A DNA stretch of 21,039 nucleotides from a virus. The stretch lies in IMG/VR virus record IMGVR_UViG_3300033571_001790, positions 1-21,039 of that record, one strand, 5' to 3'. Every line of letters starts with the position of its first letter. Position 1 is the first letter of the stretch. The translations under genes and the position numbers were made by a program. Shown here one piece after another: positions 4,711 to 19,942 of this stretch. The notes beneath the pieces are model-generated. The model made no database searches and was not told where the DNA came from. It was given only the letters and a program-made list of their open reading frames with translations.

Positions 4711-6504
4711 CTATGCTTTTTTTCTTACCACCCTTTGTATAAAAATGTGCCTGCAATAGTCACGTGTTATGTCTGTACCTTTTTGTCTCCAATAACCTCC
4801 TCTGTGTTCCCACACATCCCATCCAACCTCTGCGCTAATTAAATTAATATCCTCACGTGAATAAAGCAAATTAGCTTTTACAAGTTCATCGCAAAAAGGT
4901 CTACTTGTTTTAAGTAATATCGGACCAGAAACGCTAGGGTTTAAACCATAGGAATACATTACCTCTACTTTACTAACAGGCTTTTCTTCCAATATTGTTT
5001 GAGCCTTTTCAGTTAATAGTCTTTCGTCTTTTTTAACCTCAATCGCTCCATCTTCAATCATTTTCTCGATAGCCTTATCAACTGCTTCAACTTCCATCTT
5101 TAAGGCTTTGGCTATCTCTTTACTTTCAAGTGTGGGACTTTCTTTTAAAATCTCAAGAATTTGTTTCCATTTCTTCTTATAATCATCAGCAAACAAATCA
5201 TTAACAAATTCATAAGTTTCAGAAGATTTACCATATTTTTTGAATACGTCTAAGGCTTTTAACTCACTTTCATTTATCTTAAATTCCTGAACATTAAACT
5301 CCTGCATGGCTTGTTCCTGCTCAATTGGAGGATAGCCTGCCATTGCCCTAAGTTCATTTTTAGTCAAAATTTGAACAAGTGTATTTTCAGTCAATTGATT
5401 TGAGATAGGCTCAACCTCAACTAACTTTATTTTAACCGGACTTCTTTTGTACTCGAATAACTTATTAAAGAATTTTTCAATTTCTAATTGATGCGGACGT
5501 ACATACGTGTTTTTGAATAACTCAAAAGCTTCAATTAATTCATTCCTCCCTCCCAATTGCCCTGCAGTCTTTACACCCATTAACATGGGATTAACTACTT
5601 TGTGACCAATAAAAAGTTCTTCCTGTACGGTCTTATTAAGGATGTCAAATTGCTTATCAAAGTCAGTAGCTTGTAACCTATCAACTGTCGGAGCATTCTC
5701 CTTAGTTTGATTAAACATTACTAACAAACTATTTGCTGAATCCGTGCCTGTATATTGGTTTTGTAGCTTGTCGAATATATCTTGTTTTTCTTCCTCTGTA
5801 GGACGTCCGTTGTTAAAACTAACAATAGTTCCTGCATTGAAATTAGACTTTATTCCATTAAGCCAAAAGTTAGAAATTTCATATTCCATTTCAGCGTAAG
5901 GAATAGAAGATACATACTCAGGCAGAGCATAATACTTAATACCTGGTCTGTACATTTTAAGACACATCAATTGCCTGCCTGTTGGATTCTCAGCATCAAA
6001 CTCAGGTATATATTCAAGTTCAGTTTTTTCAGCACTTTGAGTAGTTTGTGACCAGTCATTTGAATACCAATAACCTTCTCCACTTTTATCTAATCTAATA
6101 CTTGTATAGTCAATATTATAATACTCAAAATCAGTTCCTGCCTTATTCCAAATAATTTCTACATAAAAAGCACCAAAAATAAGTCTATCTACAATAGATT
6201 TATAAATAATATCACTTACTGTTTCACCATACTTGTTAGCTTGCTTAAGATAGTCTAAACGTATTGATTTGCTTGTAGTAGTTGTTCCCTCGTCCTTAAT
6301 TGTAACACCATTACCTGCAATGTAAAAAGCTTTAGAGGTTATTATAGCATTGTGCTTAGATGAACGATTAAAAAGCTTTAAAAGGTAATCAGGATAGCGA
6401 TTTTTAAACTCTTTGTCATCCGCACCGTAAATAATCCAATCCTTGTTTTTTTCTTCTTTAAAAACAGGCACTTTTGAAGCATTAAGCTTCAATACCATTA
6501 ACAT
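4711..6504 (-). CDS. Portal protein with winged-helix-like and Cys/His C-terminal extensions
   Basis: The portal is the dodecameric ring at the capsid vertex through which DNA enters and leaves. The open frame can start at 6525 (604 aa) or at ATG 6504 (597 aa). I prefer 6504 because it follows the upstream stop by four bases and has AGGAG nine bases before it. Residues below use the long form. The portal core covers about 25-400: DWIIYGAD, NRSSKHNAIITSKAFYIAG, ESIVDRLIFGAFYVEIIW-like helix, FNNGRPTEEEKQDI, and HKVVNPMLMGVKTAGQLGG (308-326), which is characteristic of the family. Residues ~450-505 look like a winged helix (WKQILEILKESPTLESKEIA). The last ~65 carry TSRPFC (540-545), HRGGYW (574-579) and YCRHIF (590-595), a MuF-like Cys/His tail. 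The portal lies after the capsid, which is unusual. Confidence 0.88.
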   Translation of the reverse strand: MLMVLKLNASKVPVFKEEKNKDWIIYGADDKEFKNRYPDYLLKLFNRSSKHNAIITSKAFYIAGNGVTIKDEGTTTTSKSIRLDYLKQANKYGETVSDIIYKSIVDRLIFGAFYVEIIWNKAGTDFEYYNIDYTSIRLDKSGEGYWYSNDWSQTTQSAEKTELEYIPEFDAENPTGRQLMCLKMYRPGIKYYALPEYVSSIPYAEMEYEISNFWLNGIKSNFNAGTIVSFNNGRPTEEEKQDIFDKLQNQYTGTDSANSLLVMFNQTKENAPTVDRLQATDFDKQFDILNKTVQEELFIGHKVVNPMLMGVKTAGQLGGRNELIEAFELFKNTYVRPHQLEIEKFFNKLFEYKRSPVKIKLVEVEPISNQLTENTLVQILTKNELRAMAGYPPIEQEQAMQEFNVQEFKINESELKALDVFKKYGKSSETYEFVNDLFADDYKKKWKQILEILKESPTLESKEIAKALKMEVEAVDKAIEKMIEDGAIEVKKDERLLTEKAQTILEEKPVSKVEVMYSYGLNPSVSGPILLKTSRPFCDELVKANLLYSREDINLISAEVGWDVWEHRGGYWRQKGTDITRDYCRHIFIQRVVRKKA

Positions 6505-6508
6505 ATTA

Positions 6509-6895
6509 CTAAGCTCCTGCGCCATACGTTTTTATAGTTTGTGTTTTTACGTATTGTTTTTTCGTGATTGTAGGTGTTCCTTTAACATACAACATTCCCA
6601 CTTCCAATGGTACTTTATTGTCTGAAAGTGAAGGATTCAAATTAGAATTGCTTAATTGTTCAAACACTCTGTAATCCCATTCACCCTCTTCGGTTAAATT
6701 TACCGTTGTACCTTCCGTAATGTTAAATTGATTAAACCTATCAGGGAAACCACTTACATCAGTAAGTATAATATACACTGGATTCCTCTCAACCTTGTTT
6801 GTAAACTCAAATAAAAAATAAGGATTCGTTAAGGTTTGTTTTTCCTTTAAAGTCACTACAAACTTATTGCTTTGTCCTTTATTAATTACTTGCAT
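6509..6895 (-). CDS. Hypothetical small structural protein (128 aa)
   Basis: A beta-rich protein (KFVVTLKEKQTLTNPYFLFEF, then PVYIILTDVSG, then EGEWDYRVFEQ and VPLEVGMLYVKG). I have the impression of a family found beside portal or tail genes of Bacteroidota phages, but know no function. It is the first gene of a transcription unit: an intrinsic terminator lies just upstream (6936-6958), and a CCAA-N10-TTAGTACTT element ends six bases before its ATG. It overlaps the longest possible portal frame by 17 bases. A minor head or neck component is a reasonable guess. Confidence 0.78.
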   Translation of the reverse strand: MQVINKGQSNKFVVTLKEKQTLTNPYFLFEFTNKVERNPVYIILTDVSGFPDRFNQFNITEGTTVNLTEEGEWDYRVFEQLSNSNLNPSLSDNKVPLEVGMLYVKGTPTITKKQYVKTQTIKTYGAGA

Positions 6896-9261: not shown

Positions 9262-10285
9262 CTAATTTAGAACGTAGTGATTTGAAACGCTCCATTAAAG
9301 CTTCAATTTGTGTGGCATCTTTATCTACTATAAATTGATGTTCAAATATACCCTCGACACTAAACCCTCTAATTTCGCCATCCTTTACCTTATTCCAAAC
9401 CTCTGGATTTTCAACTTTATAGAATCCAAACCATGAGCCATCTGGCAAACTTTCATATCCCTTTGGAGGATTCACACCTAACTTACGATTAATGATAAAA
9501 TCATTGAACATAAACACACCTTCTACCTTTTGATTAGGATCATGCATTAAGTTTACGTTCTTATTGTTTTGTTGGTAGTGGTATTTCAAACATATTTGTT
9601 CAATTGTTTTAGAATCAAACACTACGTAATATTCCCCCAACTTTTCATCCTGCCTATAAATTGGAAGGTCTGCAATCATTAATGGTCCAGCAATAACCCT
9701 CTTTTCTTCATCGTGGATTTGCATTGAAGATTTATGTTCTTCTTTCCAAACAGAATAACAAATGGCTGCTGCTTGTTCTTGGTCTTTAACTTCATCTACT
9801 AAAGTTGAAATACATCTTGGAATAAACTCACTTTCACGCTCACCCTTTGAAGGCTTAACAAAATCCTGCCTATCTATTTGTTCTAACTTTCTTTGCGCCC
9901 ATGCAATCCCTTCGTTTCCACCCCAAGCAAGCCACATTAACGCTCCGCAATCTTCTTTAGGATCACCTTTTGAGTTTTCTCTATGCCTTTCAAATGCAGC
10001 CATTCTCGCAATAGTATCACGACTAATATTCTCACCTTTTGCTAATTGGTTTGCACGTTGCCACCCCACGGAAGTTCCGCACTTTAAATCATGTTTTTCC
10101 CTCAAGTCAATTGCTCTTTGTGCGTTTTCCTTTGCTGCTTTTGGATAGTCATTGTAACTCTCAAATTTATGAGAATTAAAAGCAACCCAGTTTTTCATAA
10201 TTGCAGGATCATCAACAAGTGCCACGTATTCAACACCGCTTGTCTCTTCATCGTTAATTAATAGTCTGTAAATAGGTAAGTTCAT
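9248..10285 (-). CDS. XkdF-like prohead protease with inserted domains
   Basis: A 345-residue protein. The outer parts match the XkdF-type putative phage serine protease: residues 1-36 (PIYRLLINDEETSGVEYVAL, VDDPAIMKNWVAF) and 190-320 (EKRVIAGPLMIADLPIYRQ, YYVVFDSKTIEQI, NLMHD with His248, PPKGYESLPDGSWFGFYKV, RGFSVEG with Ser309). His248 and Ser309 are the likely catalytic pair, as in U35-like prohead proteases. Between them sit two extra modules. One is a domain at about 43-139 (KCGTSVGWQRANQLAKGENI, TIARMAAFERHRE, LMWLAWGGNEGIAWA). The other is a short one at 147-185 (KGERESEFIPRCISTLVDEV, QEQAAAICYSVWKEE). It lies upstream of scaffold and capsid, its likely substrates. Function of the inserts is unknown to me. 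Confidence 0.8.
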   Translation of the reverse strand: MNLPIYRLLINDEETSGVEYVALVDDPAIMKNWVAFNSHKFESYNDYPKAAKENAQRAIDLREKHDLKCGTSVGWQRANQLAKGENISRDTIARMAAFERHRENSKGDPKEDCGALMWLAWGGNEGIAWAQRKLEQIDRQDFVKPSKGERESEFIPRCISTLVDEVKDQEQAAAICYSVWKEEHKSSMQIHDEEKRVIAGPLMIADLPIYRQDEKLGEYYVVFDSKTIEQICLKYHYQQNNKNVNLMHDPNQKVEGVFMFNDFIINRKLGVNPPKGYESLPDGSWFGFYKVENPEVWNKVKDGEIRGFSVEGIFEHQFIVDKDATQIEALMERFKSLRSKLANIK

Positions 10286-10288
10286 TGT

Positions 10289-12442
10289 TTAATTTATTTT
10301 AGATCGTTCTTCAATTCTGTTTACTTGTTGGTTTACATTTGCCATTTCTGTTTGCACCACTACTGCCTTCAATGGTTGAGGTGCTTGCGTTCCTTGGTTT
10401 TGTAGATTCTCAATGTTAGTGGTAGTATTACCAACTGTCTGACCCATTGCAGGCGCACCCGCTCCACCTCCACCACCTGGTACACTAACGTCTCCACCTC
10501 CACCACCTGGAGCTTTATTTAGTAACGCTTTAGCCTTTGCCACATTTGCTGCTACCGTTGCAAATCCACTTGCCAACCCTGCTGCTAAAACAGATGCATA
10601 CACGATAGGAGCGGCAGGACCAGGAGCAGCCTTAGACGCTTCTTTTGCGTTTCTAAATGCCGCAGGAATCATGGTGCTTATTGCCTGACCTGAATCAATG
10701 GCTAATTGTGCAAGTGCAAAAGCTTTTTGTGCTTTAGCTGCCTTGTCGCTATCCTTTATAAATAAGCTTGTAATTGTTTGAAAGTCATTTAATCCGTTTT
10801 GCCTTAAATAACTCAAAGCTTCCTGCATTGCTTTCTCACCTTCTGTTTGTTTATTTTGAAGTTCCAACATTTTAGCATTGTGTTCTTCTTCCAACTTTTG
10901 CAGATCGGCATTTGACAATTCTTTGTTAGACTTTAATAAATCATACCTACGTATCTCAAAGTCTATTTCATCCTGTAATGATAATTCACGTCTGTTTTTC
11001 TTTTCAAGTTCCTGCGCATCAATTAATGTAAGTCCTTGCTTTATTCTTTCATCCTCTTTTTTCTTTTCTTCCTCTGCTAATTTCTTTGCATCTTCATCCG
11101 CTTTCTTTTGTCTTTCTTCTTCGTACTTAGTTTCTATTGCGTTCCAATCATTGTTGTATTTTTCACGCAAAGCTAATAAAGCTTGTGACTTTGTTTCTTC
11201 ACTTGCTTTTGATTGTCTAATAGATTCCTGTTCAGCTTCGTATTGATTTTTTAACCTTTGTAAGTCTTGTACTTCTTGGTCTTTTATATTATCAGTCCTT
11301 AACTCTTTAAGCTTACGTTGTAATTCCGCTTCACTTTCTAATTTAGCTTTGGCACTTTCTTTGGCTTTGTCTGATGCCGCCTTGTCAATTGCTTGTATGG
11401 ATAACTCAAGTCCTGCACGATCATTCTTTAATTTTTCTAAACCTTTTAAACTTTCTTTCCTTGTTTCCTCTGCTTTTTTTGCTTCCGCTTCTGGATCAAA
11501 CAATAAACTTGCGCCCTTATCTAATAAGTTACTAAAACCTTCAGCTAATCCAAAGTTCTTACCAATAGCTTTACCAACTAAATCAATATTTTGTAATATT
11601 AATCTTAAAGGTGTAGTAAGAAAATCCAAAATACCTTTTAAAATATCGTGATTCCTTTTAGCTGCTTCAATTTGTGCTTTTGATGTAATATCGTTTTGCT
11701 CAATCTGTGCTTCTGTTGCTTTTATTACCGCATCTGTTTGTGACATCTTTAATTTAAGAATGTCTTTTTCAGATTTGCCTTGCAGCTTTAAAATATTTTC
11801 CTGACCTCCAATGGCGTCAAGTTTGCCTTTTTCTGCGTCTAAGTTAGCCTGTGTTTGTTCGTTTAACTTTTGTTGTTCTTCACTTACACCACTAATCGCT
11901 GCGGATATTTCATCCCAATAAGCTACTACCGTACCCAAAGCTACAACCAACGCACCAACACCAGAAGCTATTAAAGCTCCCCTCATTGTTTTAAATGCAT
12001 TAACTGCGGATCTTCCAAAGTCTGAAACTAATCCTTTTAAATTGCTAAATGCATCCCCAATTCCCTCAAGTTCTTTTAACCCTTGAGCCAAAGCCATTGC
12101 ACTCTGTACTTTTAGTAAAGCTTTTTGTACATTCTCACTCTCACTACCAAACAAAGCCATAGCACCTTGAGCGGCTGCAAATCCCCCGGCAATGGATGAG
12201 CCTAAATTAGCCAAAGCCTGAAATTTACCCGCTCCTGTTTTGGATGCAATGGCTTCGTTCAAATCTTCAATCTCATCCTTTACATCCGCTAATTGCTTAA
12301 GCTTTTTTCTGTATTCATCCGTTCCTACAGCTACATTGTCAAGTTCCTTTTGGATGTCTTTAAATTCCTGTTTTAATGTACGTAAACTTTTAGCTCCTTC
12401 GCCTACGTTTACGCCTATATTTATATTTGCTTGTTCTGCCAT
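10289..12442 (-). CDS. Tail tape measure protein
   Basis: A 717-residue protein. Tape measure proteins set tail length and travel into the host with the DNA. Visible: an N-terminal coiled coil (about 16-66, GAKSLRTLKQEFKDIQKELD, KQLADVKDEIEDLN), a Gly/Ala-rich stretch (77-98, GSSIAGGFAAAQGAMALF), a strongly hydrophobic segment at about 155-176 (GALIASGVGALVVALGTVVA), long charged coiled coils at about 320-540 (Lys/Glu/Gln-rich) and a hydrophobic Ala-rich part near 580-640. The C-terminus has two Gly runs (PGGGGGD, PGGGGGAG). By the common rule of about 0.15 nm per residue the tail would be roughly 105-110 nm long (an estimate). It lies after, not before, the tail-tip genes, which is unusual. 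Confidence 0.88.
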   Translation of the reverse strand: MAEQANINIGVNVGEGAKSLRTLKQEFKDIQKELDNVAVGTDEYRKKLKQLADVKDEIEDLNEAIASKTGAGKFQALANLGSSIAGGFAAAQGAMALFGSESENVQKALLKVQSAMALAQGLKELEGIGDAFSNLKGLVSDFGRSAVNAFKTMRGALIASGVGALVVALGTVVAYWDEISAAISGVSEEQQKLNEQTQANLDAEKGKLDAIGGQENILKLQGKSEKDILKLKMSQTDAVIKATEAQIEQNDITSKAQIEAAKRNHDILKGILDFLTTPLRLILQNIDLVGKAIGKNFGLAEGFSNLLDKGASLLFDPEAEAKKAEETRKESLKGLEKLKNDRAGLELSIQAIDKAASDKAKESAKAKLESEAELQRKLKELRTDNIKDQEVQDLQRLKNQYEAEQESIRQSKASEETKSQALLALREKYNNDWNAIETKYEEERQKKADEDAKKLAEEEKKKEDERIKQGLTLIDAQELEKKNRRELSLQDEIDFEIRRYDLLKSNKELSNADLQKLEEEHNAKMLELQNKQTEGEKAMQEALSYLRQNGLNDFQTITSLFIKDSDKAAKAQKAFALAQLAIDSGQAISTMIPAAFRNAKEASKAAPGPAAPIVYASVLAAGLASGFATVAANVAKAKALLNKAPGGGGGDVSVPGGGGGAGAPAMGQTVGNTTTNIENLQNQGTQAPQPLKAVVVQTEMANVNQQVNRIEERSKIN

Positions 12443-16041: not shown

Positions 16042-17279
16042 TTCTGTACTTTTGAATTAAATGAAGGCATGATCTCAAAGTCATAGTTGAATAATCCATC
16101 CCTTGCATGTGTTTTCTTAGTGTAAGAATCTGTTTTTAAGTTTACAGGAATGCAAAGATTGTTATTCATATCTACCACCCTAACATCCTTGCTTCTAAAC
16201 AAACCCTCAATCCATGCACTCTCACCTTCCGTTACCCATCCGCTCCAAACTTTTATTGAGTACTCAATGTCATTATTAAATTGTGCGCTACTTCTTTCTG
16301 TAGGACTAAATGCATAGTCTGTAGTATTCCAAACATAATTTGACTTCTTAAACATTGACCGCTTGTAATTATACATTTCCTGGAATCCACCGTAACAATT
16401 TATAGTGTCATACCCTCCCCATTGATTGAGCCAAGTCAAACGTAAATAATTTAACTTAGTACATTGACTATCTAATATAAATGTCTTAGATTCACTCGTG
16501 GCACTTAAAAAAGCATCGCAAGTATAAACAGTATAACTTACTGTGTTTGAATCAATAACAGGCTGTGTTCCTACGCTTAAATCAGAGATATTCAAATCTG
16601 CCGGCCCTACAAAAGTTCTGCATCTTTTCTTTGCTTTTGTGTTGGAAGGGTATTGATCGTTTTTAAATGTAAATGTGTTTACGTTTCCAAATACATCGGT
16701 TACGTCTATACCTATAAATTCAGTATCTACGGTATTATCTTGGTAAAAATCTAAAGCAAAACAATCATTCTCTCCTACTCTGAAGTTATTACCTTCTGTT
16801 AAAAATTTAAAGTTTGTATCATTTATATATTGAGCCTGGTACTGAAAATAATTGAATTTAGGATTGTAAGTTCCTTTGTCAATTGTAAATTCATCTAAGG
16901 CTGCACTTATTGCATATTTGTTTAATGAGCTGCTCAAATTCTGGTAAGTTACCACACCAGATGCAGGACCGTATTCCTCACCCCATCTAACATCGTATTC
17001 TACAATAGAGTTTATGCAAGTAACTACACCACTCGATCCTGGCTGCCATACATCTAAGCTAAAAAAATCCTGAATGACACCTTGCAAATCAAAAGCTGCA
17101 TAGCCATTGGAAGGATGCGCAGGTTTTTTAATACGTACATAATCAGGTGAATTGTTTACATAAACGTCTGCTACATACTTAAAGTTAGGCTGCGTGTTAT
17201 TTGTACTATCTAAAGTATAAATAATTTTATTATAACCTAAAGCAGGACTTTGTGCTGTGTTATATATTGTTAGTGCCAT
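16035..17279 (-). CDS. Tail-tip structural protein, possibly distal-tail (Dit)-like (414 aa)
   Basis: A beta-rich protein starting MALTIYNTAQSPALGYNKII, with strands such as YVADVYVNNSPDYVRIKKP, FDLQGVIQDFFSLDVWQPG, DIEYSIKVWSGWVTEGESAW and a C-terminal FNYDFEIMPSF. Several Trp and Cys residues are spread through it. I recall such proteins, paired with a following larger tail protein, at the tail tip of Bacteroidota phages, where a Dit-like hub would be expected. The pairing with the 952-residue gene (seven-base overlap) supports a joint role. A Dit identity is inferred, not shown. Confidence 0.58.
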   Translation of the reverse strand: MALTIYNTAQSPALGYNKIIYTLDSTNNTQPNFKYVADVYVNNSPDYVRIKKPAHPSNGYAAFDLQGVIQDFFSLDVWQPGSSGVVTCINSIVEYDVRWGEEYGPASGVVTYQNLSSSLNKYAISAALDEFTIDKGTYNPKFNYFQYQAQYINDTNFKFLTEGNNFRVGENDCFALDFYQDNTVDTEFIGIDVTDVFGNVNTFTFKNDQYPSNTKAKKRCRTFVGPADLNISDLSVGTQPVIDSNTVSYTVYTCDAFLSATSESKTFILDSQCTKLNYLRLTWLNQWGGYDTINCYGGFQEMYNYKRSMFKKSNYVWNTTDYAFSPTERSSAQFNNDIEYSIKVWSGWVTEGESAWIEGLFRSKDVRVVDMNNNLCIPVNLKTDSYTKKTHARDGLFNYDFEIMPSFNSKVQKW

Positions 17280-17871
17280 TGATATTTTCTACTTCGTTTT
17301 TTATTACTACTTCGACATCCTTTTTTAATGCCTTGCTAATTTCTGAGCTAATAAATTTGTTTAGCTTATCGTTATTCTCACCGATCACATCTGTTAGCCA
17401 TTTATTACCTTTAGTTCCTTTTTTAAGAATCTTTGTGGCTATTGCATAACTTAGTGACCTTGCCTTTTTTTTATCGCTTGCAAAAGCTCCAAATGAATCT
17501 TGTTTACCAGGACTAATAACCCATCTATAAATAGCAGGCTGTAATTTATTTCTTTTGTCTTTATTAAATCCTTCCGCCTTACGTCCTTTGTCTAATTCAT
17601 CCCCATATTTATTGTAAAATATTTGAACGCTTATCCTTTCCTTTGTGGCTTCGTTAGGCTTGGCTATTATAGACTGACTTAGTGATCCTGTGGCATTAGA
17701 TTCCTTCCTAACAAGTGAATCCTGCATCTCAGCCATAACACTACCAACTGCCCTAACTAAAATATCTAACGTATTTGTAAATGATAAATAGTCTGCTTGT
17801 TTCTTTTTGATGTTCTCTAAAGATGCCAAACCTCCTTTATATTTACTTGCGTTACTAATATTTAGTGCCAC
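17260..17871 (-). CDS. HK97 gp10-like tail completion protein, GTG start
   Basis: A 203-residue protein starting with GTG at 17871, 17 bases inside the preceding frame; no ATG occurs before residue 47, so GTG is the probable start. The sequence has a helix (GGLASLENIKKKQADYLSFT), a region with GSVMAEMQDSLVRKESNATG followed by SLSQSIIAKP, and RISVQIFYNKYGDELDKGRK, which fit the HK97 gp10-like pattern ('L..S......... Y...ld.G..'). The C-terminus is Lys-rich and partly helical (SSEISKALKKDVEVVIKNEV). Members of that family close the tail or join it to the head. Its position after the chaperone pair is consistent. Confidence 0.65.
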   Translation of the reverse strand: MALNISNASKYKGGLASLENIKKKQADYLSFTNTLDILVRAVGSVMAEMQDSLVRKESNATGSLSQSIIAKPNEATKERISVQIFYNKYGDELDKGRKAEGFNKDKRNKLQPAIYRWVISPGKQDSFGAFASDKKKARSLSYAIATKILKKGTKGNKWLTDVIGENNDKLNKFISSEISKALKKDVEVVIKNEVENINGTNNI

Positions 17872-18133
17872 GATTCATCTTTTTTCTAAGTTCCTCTAAA
17901 TGCTTTTCCTTGTCCTTATAAAATGCTAACGTATTCAAAAACTCAATTACTCCCATGTTTAAAAAGTAATCCCATTTACTACGATCTGAATTACTCAAAG
18001 AATCTAAAACATTGTACCATCCCCATGCTCCCATTCCTGACTTCGCTCCCTCTCGTATTTCTCCTTCAATTGGCTCATTGTCGATGTCAAAAAGTCTGGG
18101 ATAGCTTCTACTAATTTGATTAATAGAGTGCAA
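17855..18133 (-). CDS. Second-frame (T-like) extension of the tail assembly chaperone, made by frameshifting
   Basis: A 92-codon frame in the -1 frame relative to the preceding gene. The only near-start is TTG at 18133, and it coincides with the end of a T9 run. There is no ATG in this frame before residue 33, and the frame is open upstream through the slippery run. The sequence is well behaved (IDNEPIEGEIREGAKSGMGA, WGWYNVLDSLSNSDRSKWDY, GVIEFLNTLAFYKDKEKHLE) and helical, with a Trp-containing 'GW...I/L..L' pattern I recall from the C-terminal part of such proteins in Bacteroidota phages. A -1 slip on T TTT TTT (18139-18133) would give a 255-residue G-T type fusion. It overlaps the gp10-like gene by 17 bases. 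Confidence 0.75.
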   Translation of the reverse strand: MHSINQISRSYPRLFDIDNEPIEGEIREGAKSGMGAWGWYNVLDSLSNSDRSKWDYFLNMGVIEFLNTLAFYKDKEKHLEELRKKMNRGTKY

Positions 18134-18621
18134 AAAAAAAGTGTCATCGGATAAATCTGCTGAACATTTGCATGGTTTAGTATCTCAACCTTTGCTTCAA
18201 ATGTCAAATCTATCTTGCGTTTAAATATCCACCACCCTTTGTAAGGTGTTAAAAATAAAGCAATTAACTTTGGTGTATTGATTACAATATTTTCTTTTTC
18301 CTTTGTTAACTCAGTCACACTGATATACTCCCCTGCTGTTATTTTGCGGATGTCTAAACGTGGAACCCATAAATAACCACCCAATCTAAATGACTTTGGG
18401 TTGGTAGGCTTTGGAAAGTCATGCACCCATGAAATATCCTTTTGAGCTTGCACCCATGTATCTAATGTCATTGATTCCACCTGATCAATAGTCAAACCAC
18501 TAAGTATTGAAAATATACGTATTGACTTGTCAATAGCTTCAATACTTTCATCTTGAGCGATGTCATATAAGTCTATAAACTGCTTAATGTTTACGTCCTT
18601 CCAACTTTGTGCTATTTTCAT
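18004..18621 (-). CDS. Putative tail assembly chaperone (G-like product)
   Basis: A 205-residue protein, first gene after a terminator and promoter-like element B. N-terminus: SWKDVNIKQFIDLYDIAQDE and KSIRIFSILSGLTIDQVESM, helical, with the 'W.dv....f.dl' and 'il.glt.dqve.m' pattern that I recall from tail assembly chaperone-type proteins of Bacteroidota phages. Middle: LWVPRLDIRKITAGEYISVT and LIALFLTPYKGWW. Near residue 160 the reading passes YPMTLFF, which the DNA encodes with nine T in a row, and the -1 frame then opens into a second conserved-looking segment. In zero frame the protein goes on for 42 codons (CTLLIKLVEAIPDFLTSTMS). Lambda-like phages make a short G and a longer GT product by -1 frameshifting in the same way. 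Confidence 0.7.
   Translation of the reverse strand: MKIAQSWKDVNIKQFIDLYDIAQDESIEAIDKSIRIFSILSGLTIDQVESMTLDTWVQAQKDISWVHDFPKPTNPKSFRLGGYLWVPRLDIRKITAGEYISVTELTKEKENIVINTPKLIALFLTPYKGWWIFKRKIDLTFEAKVEILNHANVQQIYPMTLFFCTLLIKLVEAIPDFLTSTMSQLKEKYERERSQEWEHGDGTMF
18132..18140 (-). other. Probable -1 frameshift site: T9 slippery run
   Basis: On the minus strand nine T in a row, read in zero frame as CTT TTT TTT TGC. The heptamer T TTT TTT (18139-18133) allows tandem P- and A-site tRNA slippage by -1, after which the next codon is TTG at 18133 and the frame stays open to 17855. No strong downstream hairpin is obvious. Transcriptional slippage (a T10 transcript) would produce the same fusion. Confidence 0.72.
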
Positions 18622-18669: not shown

Positions 18670-18696
18670 AAAAAAAGGCAGCCTTACGGGGCTACC
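18670..18696 (-). terminator. Intrinsic terminator after the large terminase gene
   Basis: On the minus strand GGTAGCC (18696-18690), loop CCGTAA, GGCTGCC (18683-18677), then at least six T from 18676. The stem is seven pairs with one G-T wobble. It lies in the 115-base gap between the terminase stop and the next gene and closes the packaging unit. Confidence 0.86.
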
Positions 18697-18736: not shown

Positions 18737-19942
18737 TTAAAGTAATATGTACCTACCACCTTTTGCAAAATCTTTGTATGCCTGGTAACAAATAGCTGTA
18801 CTCATTACACCATCGTCGTGGAATCCTGCCGGAGCGGAATACTTAATCATGCGACTTTGTGGGTTATATTCGTAACTAAACACCTCAAATTCTTTCTTAA
18901 GCCAATCTAAGTCTAAAATAGTAACCTCCTTATTTTGGCTTGCAACTAATAAACTTTCTATTATATCCGTTTTACTTTTAGCTGTAGTAACGAACGGATG
19001 TATATTACAAACACCGCTCAAATCGTTTCTAAGCGTTTCTAAAACAATATCCCCTATTGAATTAACCTCTACGTACAAATCAGGTCTGTAATCTCTTAAA
19101 ATCGATTTTACATTGTTTAATATCTGCGTCCATTCCATCTGCCGCCACCTATCACAATAAACCATCTGCCCTTTGTCATTCATTATTGTAAGTACGGTAT
19201 AGTCATCTGCCCTACCTAAGTCTAATCCTGCAACCATTCTCGATGTACGTTCGCCAACTCCAATGGGTATATTATTAAACAAATAGTGACCCCCATCAAT
19301 AAACTCTGCTAAATATTCTTGCCTAAAAATAATATCAGGCAACGTCACCCTTGCATCATCAATTTCAGAAGGTGTAATTATTGGATTGTCATACGAAGTC
19401 ATAGTAAACGACTTGTATTGCGGATTCACCCCATCCAATTGGTATAAATTGTAAAAATGGTTTTTACCCTTTGGTGTACTAATCAAAAGTACTTTTTTAC
19501 CCTTAACCAATACTGTTGCACGTAAAACCTCTGTCCAAGCCTTAGAATCCATGAAGGCAAACTCATCACAAACCAAATAGTCAAAAGTAAATCCACGAAT
19601 ATTATCGTATCTCTCAGCAGAAAAGAATTGAATGGTCGATCCTGTGACGTACTCCAATAACAAGTCCGATTGGTTTACACTACGATAAATTTCAGGACGT
19701 TTAATAAACGCTTTGTGAATATCCTGAAATACTTTTTTGCTTTGCTTGTAAACAGGACTCACCCATGCGCATTTAACATTCTTATTATTTAATGCCCAAT
19801 AGAGTAACTGATTCGCTGCTAATAACGTCTTTCCAAACTGCCTGCCTATATTAAGCAAGTAGTATTTGTGAGGCTCGTTATTGATCGAGTAGTGTATCTT
19901 CTCCTGATTCGAGTGTGGGGTATATAGTATCGCTCTTGCCAA
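18737..19942 (-). CDS. terL: Terminase large subunit
   Basis: The packaging motor: an ATPase plus nuclease that pumps DNA through the portal and cuts it. Motifs in the 401-residue product: Walker A GRQFGKT (33-39); Walker B LVCDEF (123-128); coupling motif ISTPKGKN (154-161); RNase H-like nuclease with AGLDLGRADDYT (238-249, Asp241), VEVNSIGD (291-298) and FHDDGVMSTA (374-383, Asp376/377). The first usable start is TTG at 19942, which overlaps the small-subunit gene by 65 bases. A TGA lies upstream in this frame and no ATG occurs until residue 131, so the start is TTG or another non-ATG codon. The gene is followed by a strong terminator. Confidence 0.95.
   Translation of the reverse strand: MARAILYTPHSNQEKIHYSINNEPHKYYLLNIGRQFGKTLLAANQLLYWALNNKNVKCAWVSPVYKQSKKVFQDIHKAFIKRPEIYRSVNQSDLLLEYVTGSTIQFFSAERYDNIRGFTFDYLVCDEFAFMDSKAWTEVLRATVLVKGKKVLLISTPKGKNHFYNLYQLDGVNPQYKSFTMTSYDNPIITPSEIDDARVTLPDIIFRQEYLAEFIDGGHYLFNNIPIGVGERTSRMVAGLDLGRADDYTVLTIMNDKGQMVYCDRWRQMEWTQILNNVKSILRDYRPDLYVEVNSIGDIVLETLRNDLSGVCNIHPFVTTAKSKTDIIESLLVASQNKEVTILDLDWLKKEFEVFSYEYNPQSRMIKYSAPAGFHDDGVMSTAICYQAYKDFAKGGRYILL

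Follow-up and report, generated by a model that had tools for sequence, protein, structure and literature searches.

One start codon in a phage tail-module gene very probably gives rise to two proteins, a common product of 205 residues and a minority product of 255 residues, through a -1 shift at a run of nine Ts. That the run, the frame relation and both coding frames are conserved is decisive and strongly supports programmed recoding. Recoding of this kind is known; this widespread family of it is new, and a literature search, by the terms used, found no paper tying tail-chaperone recoding to Bacteroidota phages.

The window, that is, the whole stretch of DNA analysed, comprises 21,039 bases of IMG/VR virus record IMGVR_UViG_3300033571_001790 and has a GC content of 35%. 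Its minus strand carries phage structural genes for TerS-like, TerL, recoded, tail, tape-measure-like, capsid and portal proteins. The features needed here are as follows.

18737-19942, minus strand: terminase large subunit (TerL), the upstream neighbour of the recoded gene
18670-18696, minus strand: terminator-like hairpin followed by T7, read from the sequence, between terminase and slip gene
18004-18621, minus strand: zero-frame gene of 205 aa, putative short G-like product, from the ORF and its relatives
18132-18140, minus strand: candidate T9 slip site, zero frame CTT TTT TTT TGC; a T run stands there in every split relative
18139-18133, minus strand: candidate ribosomal heptamer T_TTT_TTT, within T9 and in the zero frame
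17855-18133, minus strand: -1 extension, 92 codons to the stop, predicted 255-aa fusion, from substitutions and the in-frame homologues L326 and L333
18004-18133, minus strand: region probably read in both frames, 130 nt; both frames constrained in the window's clade
17260-17871, minus strand: next gene, 203 aa, tail-completion-like from context alone
10289-12442, minus strand: tape-measure-like protein, PHROG match (phrog_24676)
4711-6525, minus strand: portal, a structural gene

The T9 run (18140-18132) lies inside the 205-codon ORF 18621-18004, and the -1 frame, entered at TTG 18133, stays open for 92 codons until the stop at 17855, overlapping the zero frame by 130 bases; an earlier, sequence-only reading of this DNA had given the same coordinates, register and overlap. 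Upstream of the TTG, the -1 frame is free of stops for a further 17 codons. Its first ATG past the T run comes late, as that reading had said, at residue 34 (18034) rather than 33. The domain encoded there shows the pattern W..W(Y)..LD.LS..DR.KWD..LNM.V..FLN.L...KD, and the following 203-residue gene has a GTG start and overlaps the stop of the -1 frame by 17 nt. A single T9 is unremarkable because the DNA is AT-rich: the window holds one A/T run of at least nine, and a first-order Markov model expects about three. The run alone is within chance, whereas its conservation at the same codon in all split virus relatives goes beyond it.

The recoded gene is the first after TerL, and four genes separate it from the tape-measure-like gene further downstream. 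The hairpin with its T7, which is also present in L002 and L003, separates TerL from the recoded gene, and the latter may therefore start its own transcript. Gene order in the window runs from packaging through the tail, tape measure included, to capsid and portal; the distant relative L125 has a similar order of TerL, recoded gene, tail, tape measure and capsid, assigned by eye. The portal carries a winged-helix-like C-terminal region (about residues 447-514, with weak PCI, MarR and HTH_24 matches), which is unusual in a portal.

We infer the slip itself, together with its mechanism and efficiency, in the following form. Most expression would read straight past T9 and end at 18004, giving the 205-residue protein; a minority would be shifted to -1 at the T run, and the ribosome would then read the downstream domain to 17855, giving the 255-residue protein. 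The minimal signal common to the family would be T_TTT_TTT, on which two tRNA-Phe, in the P and A sites, would re-pair one base back.

Conservation of the T run in viruses and bacterial genomes

Virus relatives were gathered from eighty TerL loci and by a scan for the motif WGWYNV, which gave 165 IMG/VR loci with a relative of the zero-frame gene; removal of duplicates and addition of the cultured Nonlabens phages P12024S/L brought the set to 121 distinct virus genes. The T run always falls on the same Phe-Phe, as T9 in 101 genes, T10 in 19 and T11 in one, and is retained there although identities fall to about 13-20%. Each of the 166 pairs of zero-frame and second ORF from virus contigs stands in the -1 relation. 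The site recurs unchanged, together with both frames, in two near relatives from other metagenomes, at 98% and 79% protein identity. The Nonlabens phages, in which genes 38/39 and 40/41 show CTT TTT TTT TAT with a -1 ORF, were found only once a more distant relative served as query; the window proteins themselves, run against Pfam and PHROGs and by tblastn against phage records, gave no match for the slip-gene protein.

Profile matches also occur in 87 of 351 sampled genomes of the order of Pedobacter, about a quarter, with a few more in the order of Neptunitalea and across Bacteroidota. Among the 77 distinct split members from bacterial genomes (prophages of Bacteroidota), 46 have T7, six T8, 21 T9 and four T10, and in all 77 T_TTT_TTT precedes a second domain that lies in the -1 frame. 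Members with T7-8 belong almost entirely to a single clade with CAT as codon 1 (CAT TTT TTT A), and the tree needs only two changes between T7-8 and runs of at least nine; the T7 members sit on chromosome-sized contigs, for example L361 on 5.35 Mb. Overall, 198 distinct genes from viruses and bacterial genomes carry T_TTT_TTT in the zero frame, always with an overlapping -1 second ORF in the split ones, so that the alignment of homologues suggested in the sequence-only reading found both heptamer and frame relation conserved. A search of the genome collection for the exact window protein gave no match, and matches to the WGWYNV motif in genome contigs, the best in L285 and L271, were rejected as chance.

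Cultured members are currently annotated as two unrelated hypothetical proteins. Once the site is recognised, a pair of uncharacterised genes beside the terminase, found across a large group of phages from the environment, gains a likely role.

Ribosome or RNA polymerase at the slip site

In the T7 members nothing beyond the in-frame heptamer is left, so that -1 slippage by the ribosome is probably enough for the family; in the CAT clade, where T7 on chromosome-sized contigs leaves the heptamer alone, it is the economical reading. In E. coli, U_UUU_UUY ranks with the better heptamers (PMC4066793). The heptamer seems to work without a stimulatory RNA structure: a search for a conserved downstream stem-loop or pseudoknot gave no consensus fold and a mean z near 0 in all groups, and an upstream Shine-Dalgarno-like stimulator was absent. 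Known tail-chaperone sites can likewise lack a stimulatory structure; P2 E/E+E', for example, shifts at TTTTTTG without one (PMC3091744).

A run of at least nine Ts exceeds the length that a heptamer needs, and nine is the usual run length for slippage by bacterial RNA polymerase (PMC1088944; PMC5009743; PMC3711429), a common threshold in bacteria (PMC1088944; PMC5009743). As such runs are found nearly everywhere outside the CAT clade, slippage during transcription may play a part in the window's lineage, where the nine Ts would be long enough for the polymerase to add a T and the shift may be partly or mainly transcriptional. The sequence-only reading had left both translational and transcript slippage possible, rightly in our judgement. 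In the stronger version, the polymerase would add one U on T9, the resulting T10 mRNA would encode the 255 residues, and the ribosomal route would be secondary or specific to the T7 clade, implying a change of mechanism such as separates the dnaX of E. coli from that of Thermus; we put this version a little short of an even chance.

Several observations favour a mainly transcriptional shift. Outside the CAT clade, 144 of 146 distinct genes keep at least nine Ts despite an estimated 19 changes in codon 1 and 12 in codon 4, and the run occupies two codon registers. A conserved A/T run of at least nine characterises the window's lineage and is relaxed to T7-8 in one clade, and runs of that length are scarce elsewhere in these contigs (49 in 1.59 Mb). 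Since polymerase slippage also yields +1 transcripts, early closure of the +1 frame in the long-run genes would suit it: this frame is closed within three codons in 37 of 51 representatives with at least nine Ts (16.6 expected), as against 6 of 29 with T7-8 (8.2 expected).

Against this, related T7 genes, at which polymerase slippage is unlikely, share the -1 arrangement, and a codon 4 that starts with T may be held by residues of either frame (F/L/C). The few independent codon switches also leave the compensation and +1-closure signals without phylogenetic power. Run-length compensation between codons 1 and 4, near perfect in counts, was dropped as proof because it reflects one to three independent switches and because the -1 residues L/F/Y can favour T in codon 4. 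Shared ancestry and amino-acid constraint in two frames thus weaken the polymerase arguments, and for the window we judge ribosome and polymerase to be roughly even.

Known genes with poly-A/T slippage (Thermus dnaX with A9, Shigella mxiE, IS elements) resemble the present one in a homopolymer of about nine at the frame junction and in the rarity of such runs otherwise; they differ in that the T7 relatives here suggest that the ribosome can act alone. A wider proposal, that a Bacteroidota phage family spanning the phylum sets the ratio of its two tail-assembly proteins by polymerase slippage on a maintained T9-T11 run, with one clade that cut the run to T7 and depends on the ribosome alone and other members fused in frame, and hence has three expression solutions, is tentative and in our view less likely than not. 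If true, the new part would be transcriptional slippage with ribosomal and unsplit variants in one family. The natural series of T7, T9, T10-11 and unsplit genes makes the choice between ribosome and polymerase testable in one gene, as with dnaX.

A probable role in tail assembly

The anatomy of the gene, with its place at the head of the tail module, a short and a long product and a W-containing helical second domain, suggests tail-chaperone function of the lambda G/GT kind. Xu, Hendrix and Duda reportedly described, in 2004, lambda G/GT and the conserved -1 frameshift of tail chaperones. By analogy with that pair, coating of the tape measure protein would fall to the short form and recruitment of tail tube subunits to the rare long one. 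As in lambda, one start would serve both a short and a long product, the -1 shift would come late in the first ORF, the extension in the shifted frame is T-like, and a stimulatory structure is apparently absent. The lambda slip sequence, however, is GGGAAAG and the run here is poly-T (T9-T11), sequence homology is not detectable, and the recoded gene is not adjacent to the tape measure gene.

Similarly, P2 E/E+E' (Phage_TAC_7, PF10109) shares the -1 shift, a T-rich heptamer (T_TTT_TTG) and the lack of a hairpin, but its site has six Ts and then G, and the 91-residue gpE is not demonstrably homologous. Homology to gpE was rejected after hhalign against ten P2 gpE homologues gave a probability of 1-2%, and PF10109 appears below threshold in 6 of 42 relatives. 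Homology does not place the recoded pair by descent in the lambda G/GT or P2 protein families; of the G / G-T chaperone pair named in the sequence-only reading, the anatomy fits and the homology is lacking.

The 205-residue product is predicted to form a compact fold (pLDDT 87) ending in a long helix, residues 153-199, that passes through the slip site into the zero-frame tail; AlphaFold models the -1 domain poorly (pLDDT 54). A PDB fold search with the 205-residue model gave no match, and its fold matches are mainly uncharacterised phage proteins.

The recoding could be real and the protein still serve another tail or head-tail joining function, which we consider unlikely. The window protein has no Pfam or PHROG match at threshold, and the hhalign result and the distance to the tape measure gene also suit such a function. 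The chaperone reading is preferred on three grounds: in two clades the gene follows TerL and opens the tail module, a long and a short protein linked by a -1 shift are typical of tail chaperones, and one weak fold match (prob 0.85) is to a protein annotated as a tail assembly chaperone.

Constraint on both frames and the possibility of separate genes

Substitutions were counted in closely related pairs by codon position upstream of the T run, in the overlap and downstream of the zero-frame stop. In the window's clade, zero-frame position 3 takes the substitutions upstream of the run (0.167 per site), and zero-frame position 2, the wobble position of the -1 frame, takes those past the zero-frame stop (0.104). 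This switch of the wobble position across the site indicates that both frames are translated. In the overlap both classes are lowered (0.054 and 0.038), which shows that in this clade the last 42 codons of the short product are under constraint of their own; in the CAT clade the zero-frame tail is nearly free of constraint. Purifying selection, as read from these substitution patterns, acts on both frames of the recoded gene. L326 and L333 carry both domains in a single ORF from which the slip site is absent, and such unsplit homologues show that the two parts belong together. The predicted products of 205 and 255 residues thus agree with a conserved run and frame relation, two coding frames and unsplit homologues.

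It is very improbable that the second ORF stands alone as a gene, translated from a start codon of its own or by coupled re-initiation, and yields no fusion. Such a gene would match the annotation of P12024S/L, where, in a departure from the window, the second of the two hypothetical proteins is a separate 55-residue ORF with a possible ATG overlapping the zero-frame stop. Most members, however, have no Met early in the -1 part (none in its first 25 residues in 187 of 198 genes), which speaks against the independent, ATG-started second gene considered in the sequence-only reading; moreover, the -1 frame is open and constrained right behind the T run, the run is invariant and unsplit homologues exist. 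Gene decay, or an indel from sequencing or assembly, which error-prone homopolymers might suggest and one contig alone could not exclude, is already refuted by conservation: across many samples and genomes, 198 distinct genes share the run type and frame relation, and purifying selection acts on both of their frames. The T10 alternative is excluded by the recurrence of T9 in relatives from other metagenomes and in cultured phages.

Some related genes depart from the split arrangement. In the bacterial genomes L350, L365, L390 and L402, the zero-frame gene ends exactly at the slip position (...VTEALPIA) with no T run, and the cut gene is joined to a small ORF of another kind, by deletion or module swap at the recoding site. 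Six others (L332, L368, L407, L409, L414 and L417) have the first domain with no separate -1 ORF found, and their C-termini resemble an in-frame second domain, below the profile threshold. In Flavobacterium phage 6H (L421:10047-10927), the fold match R9VW65 (presumably AGN89393) ends at T_TTT_TTC, after which the -1 frame stops at once, and the unannotated gap 10047-10352 holds a stretch like the second domain.
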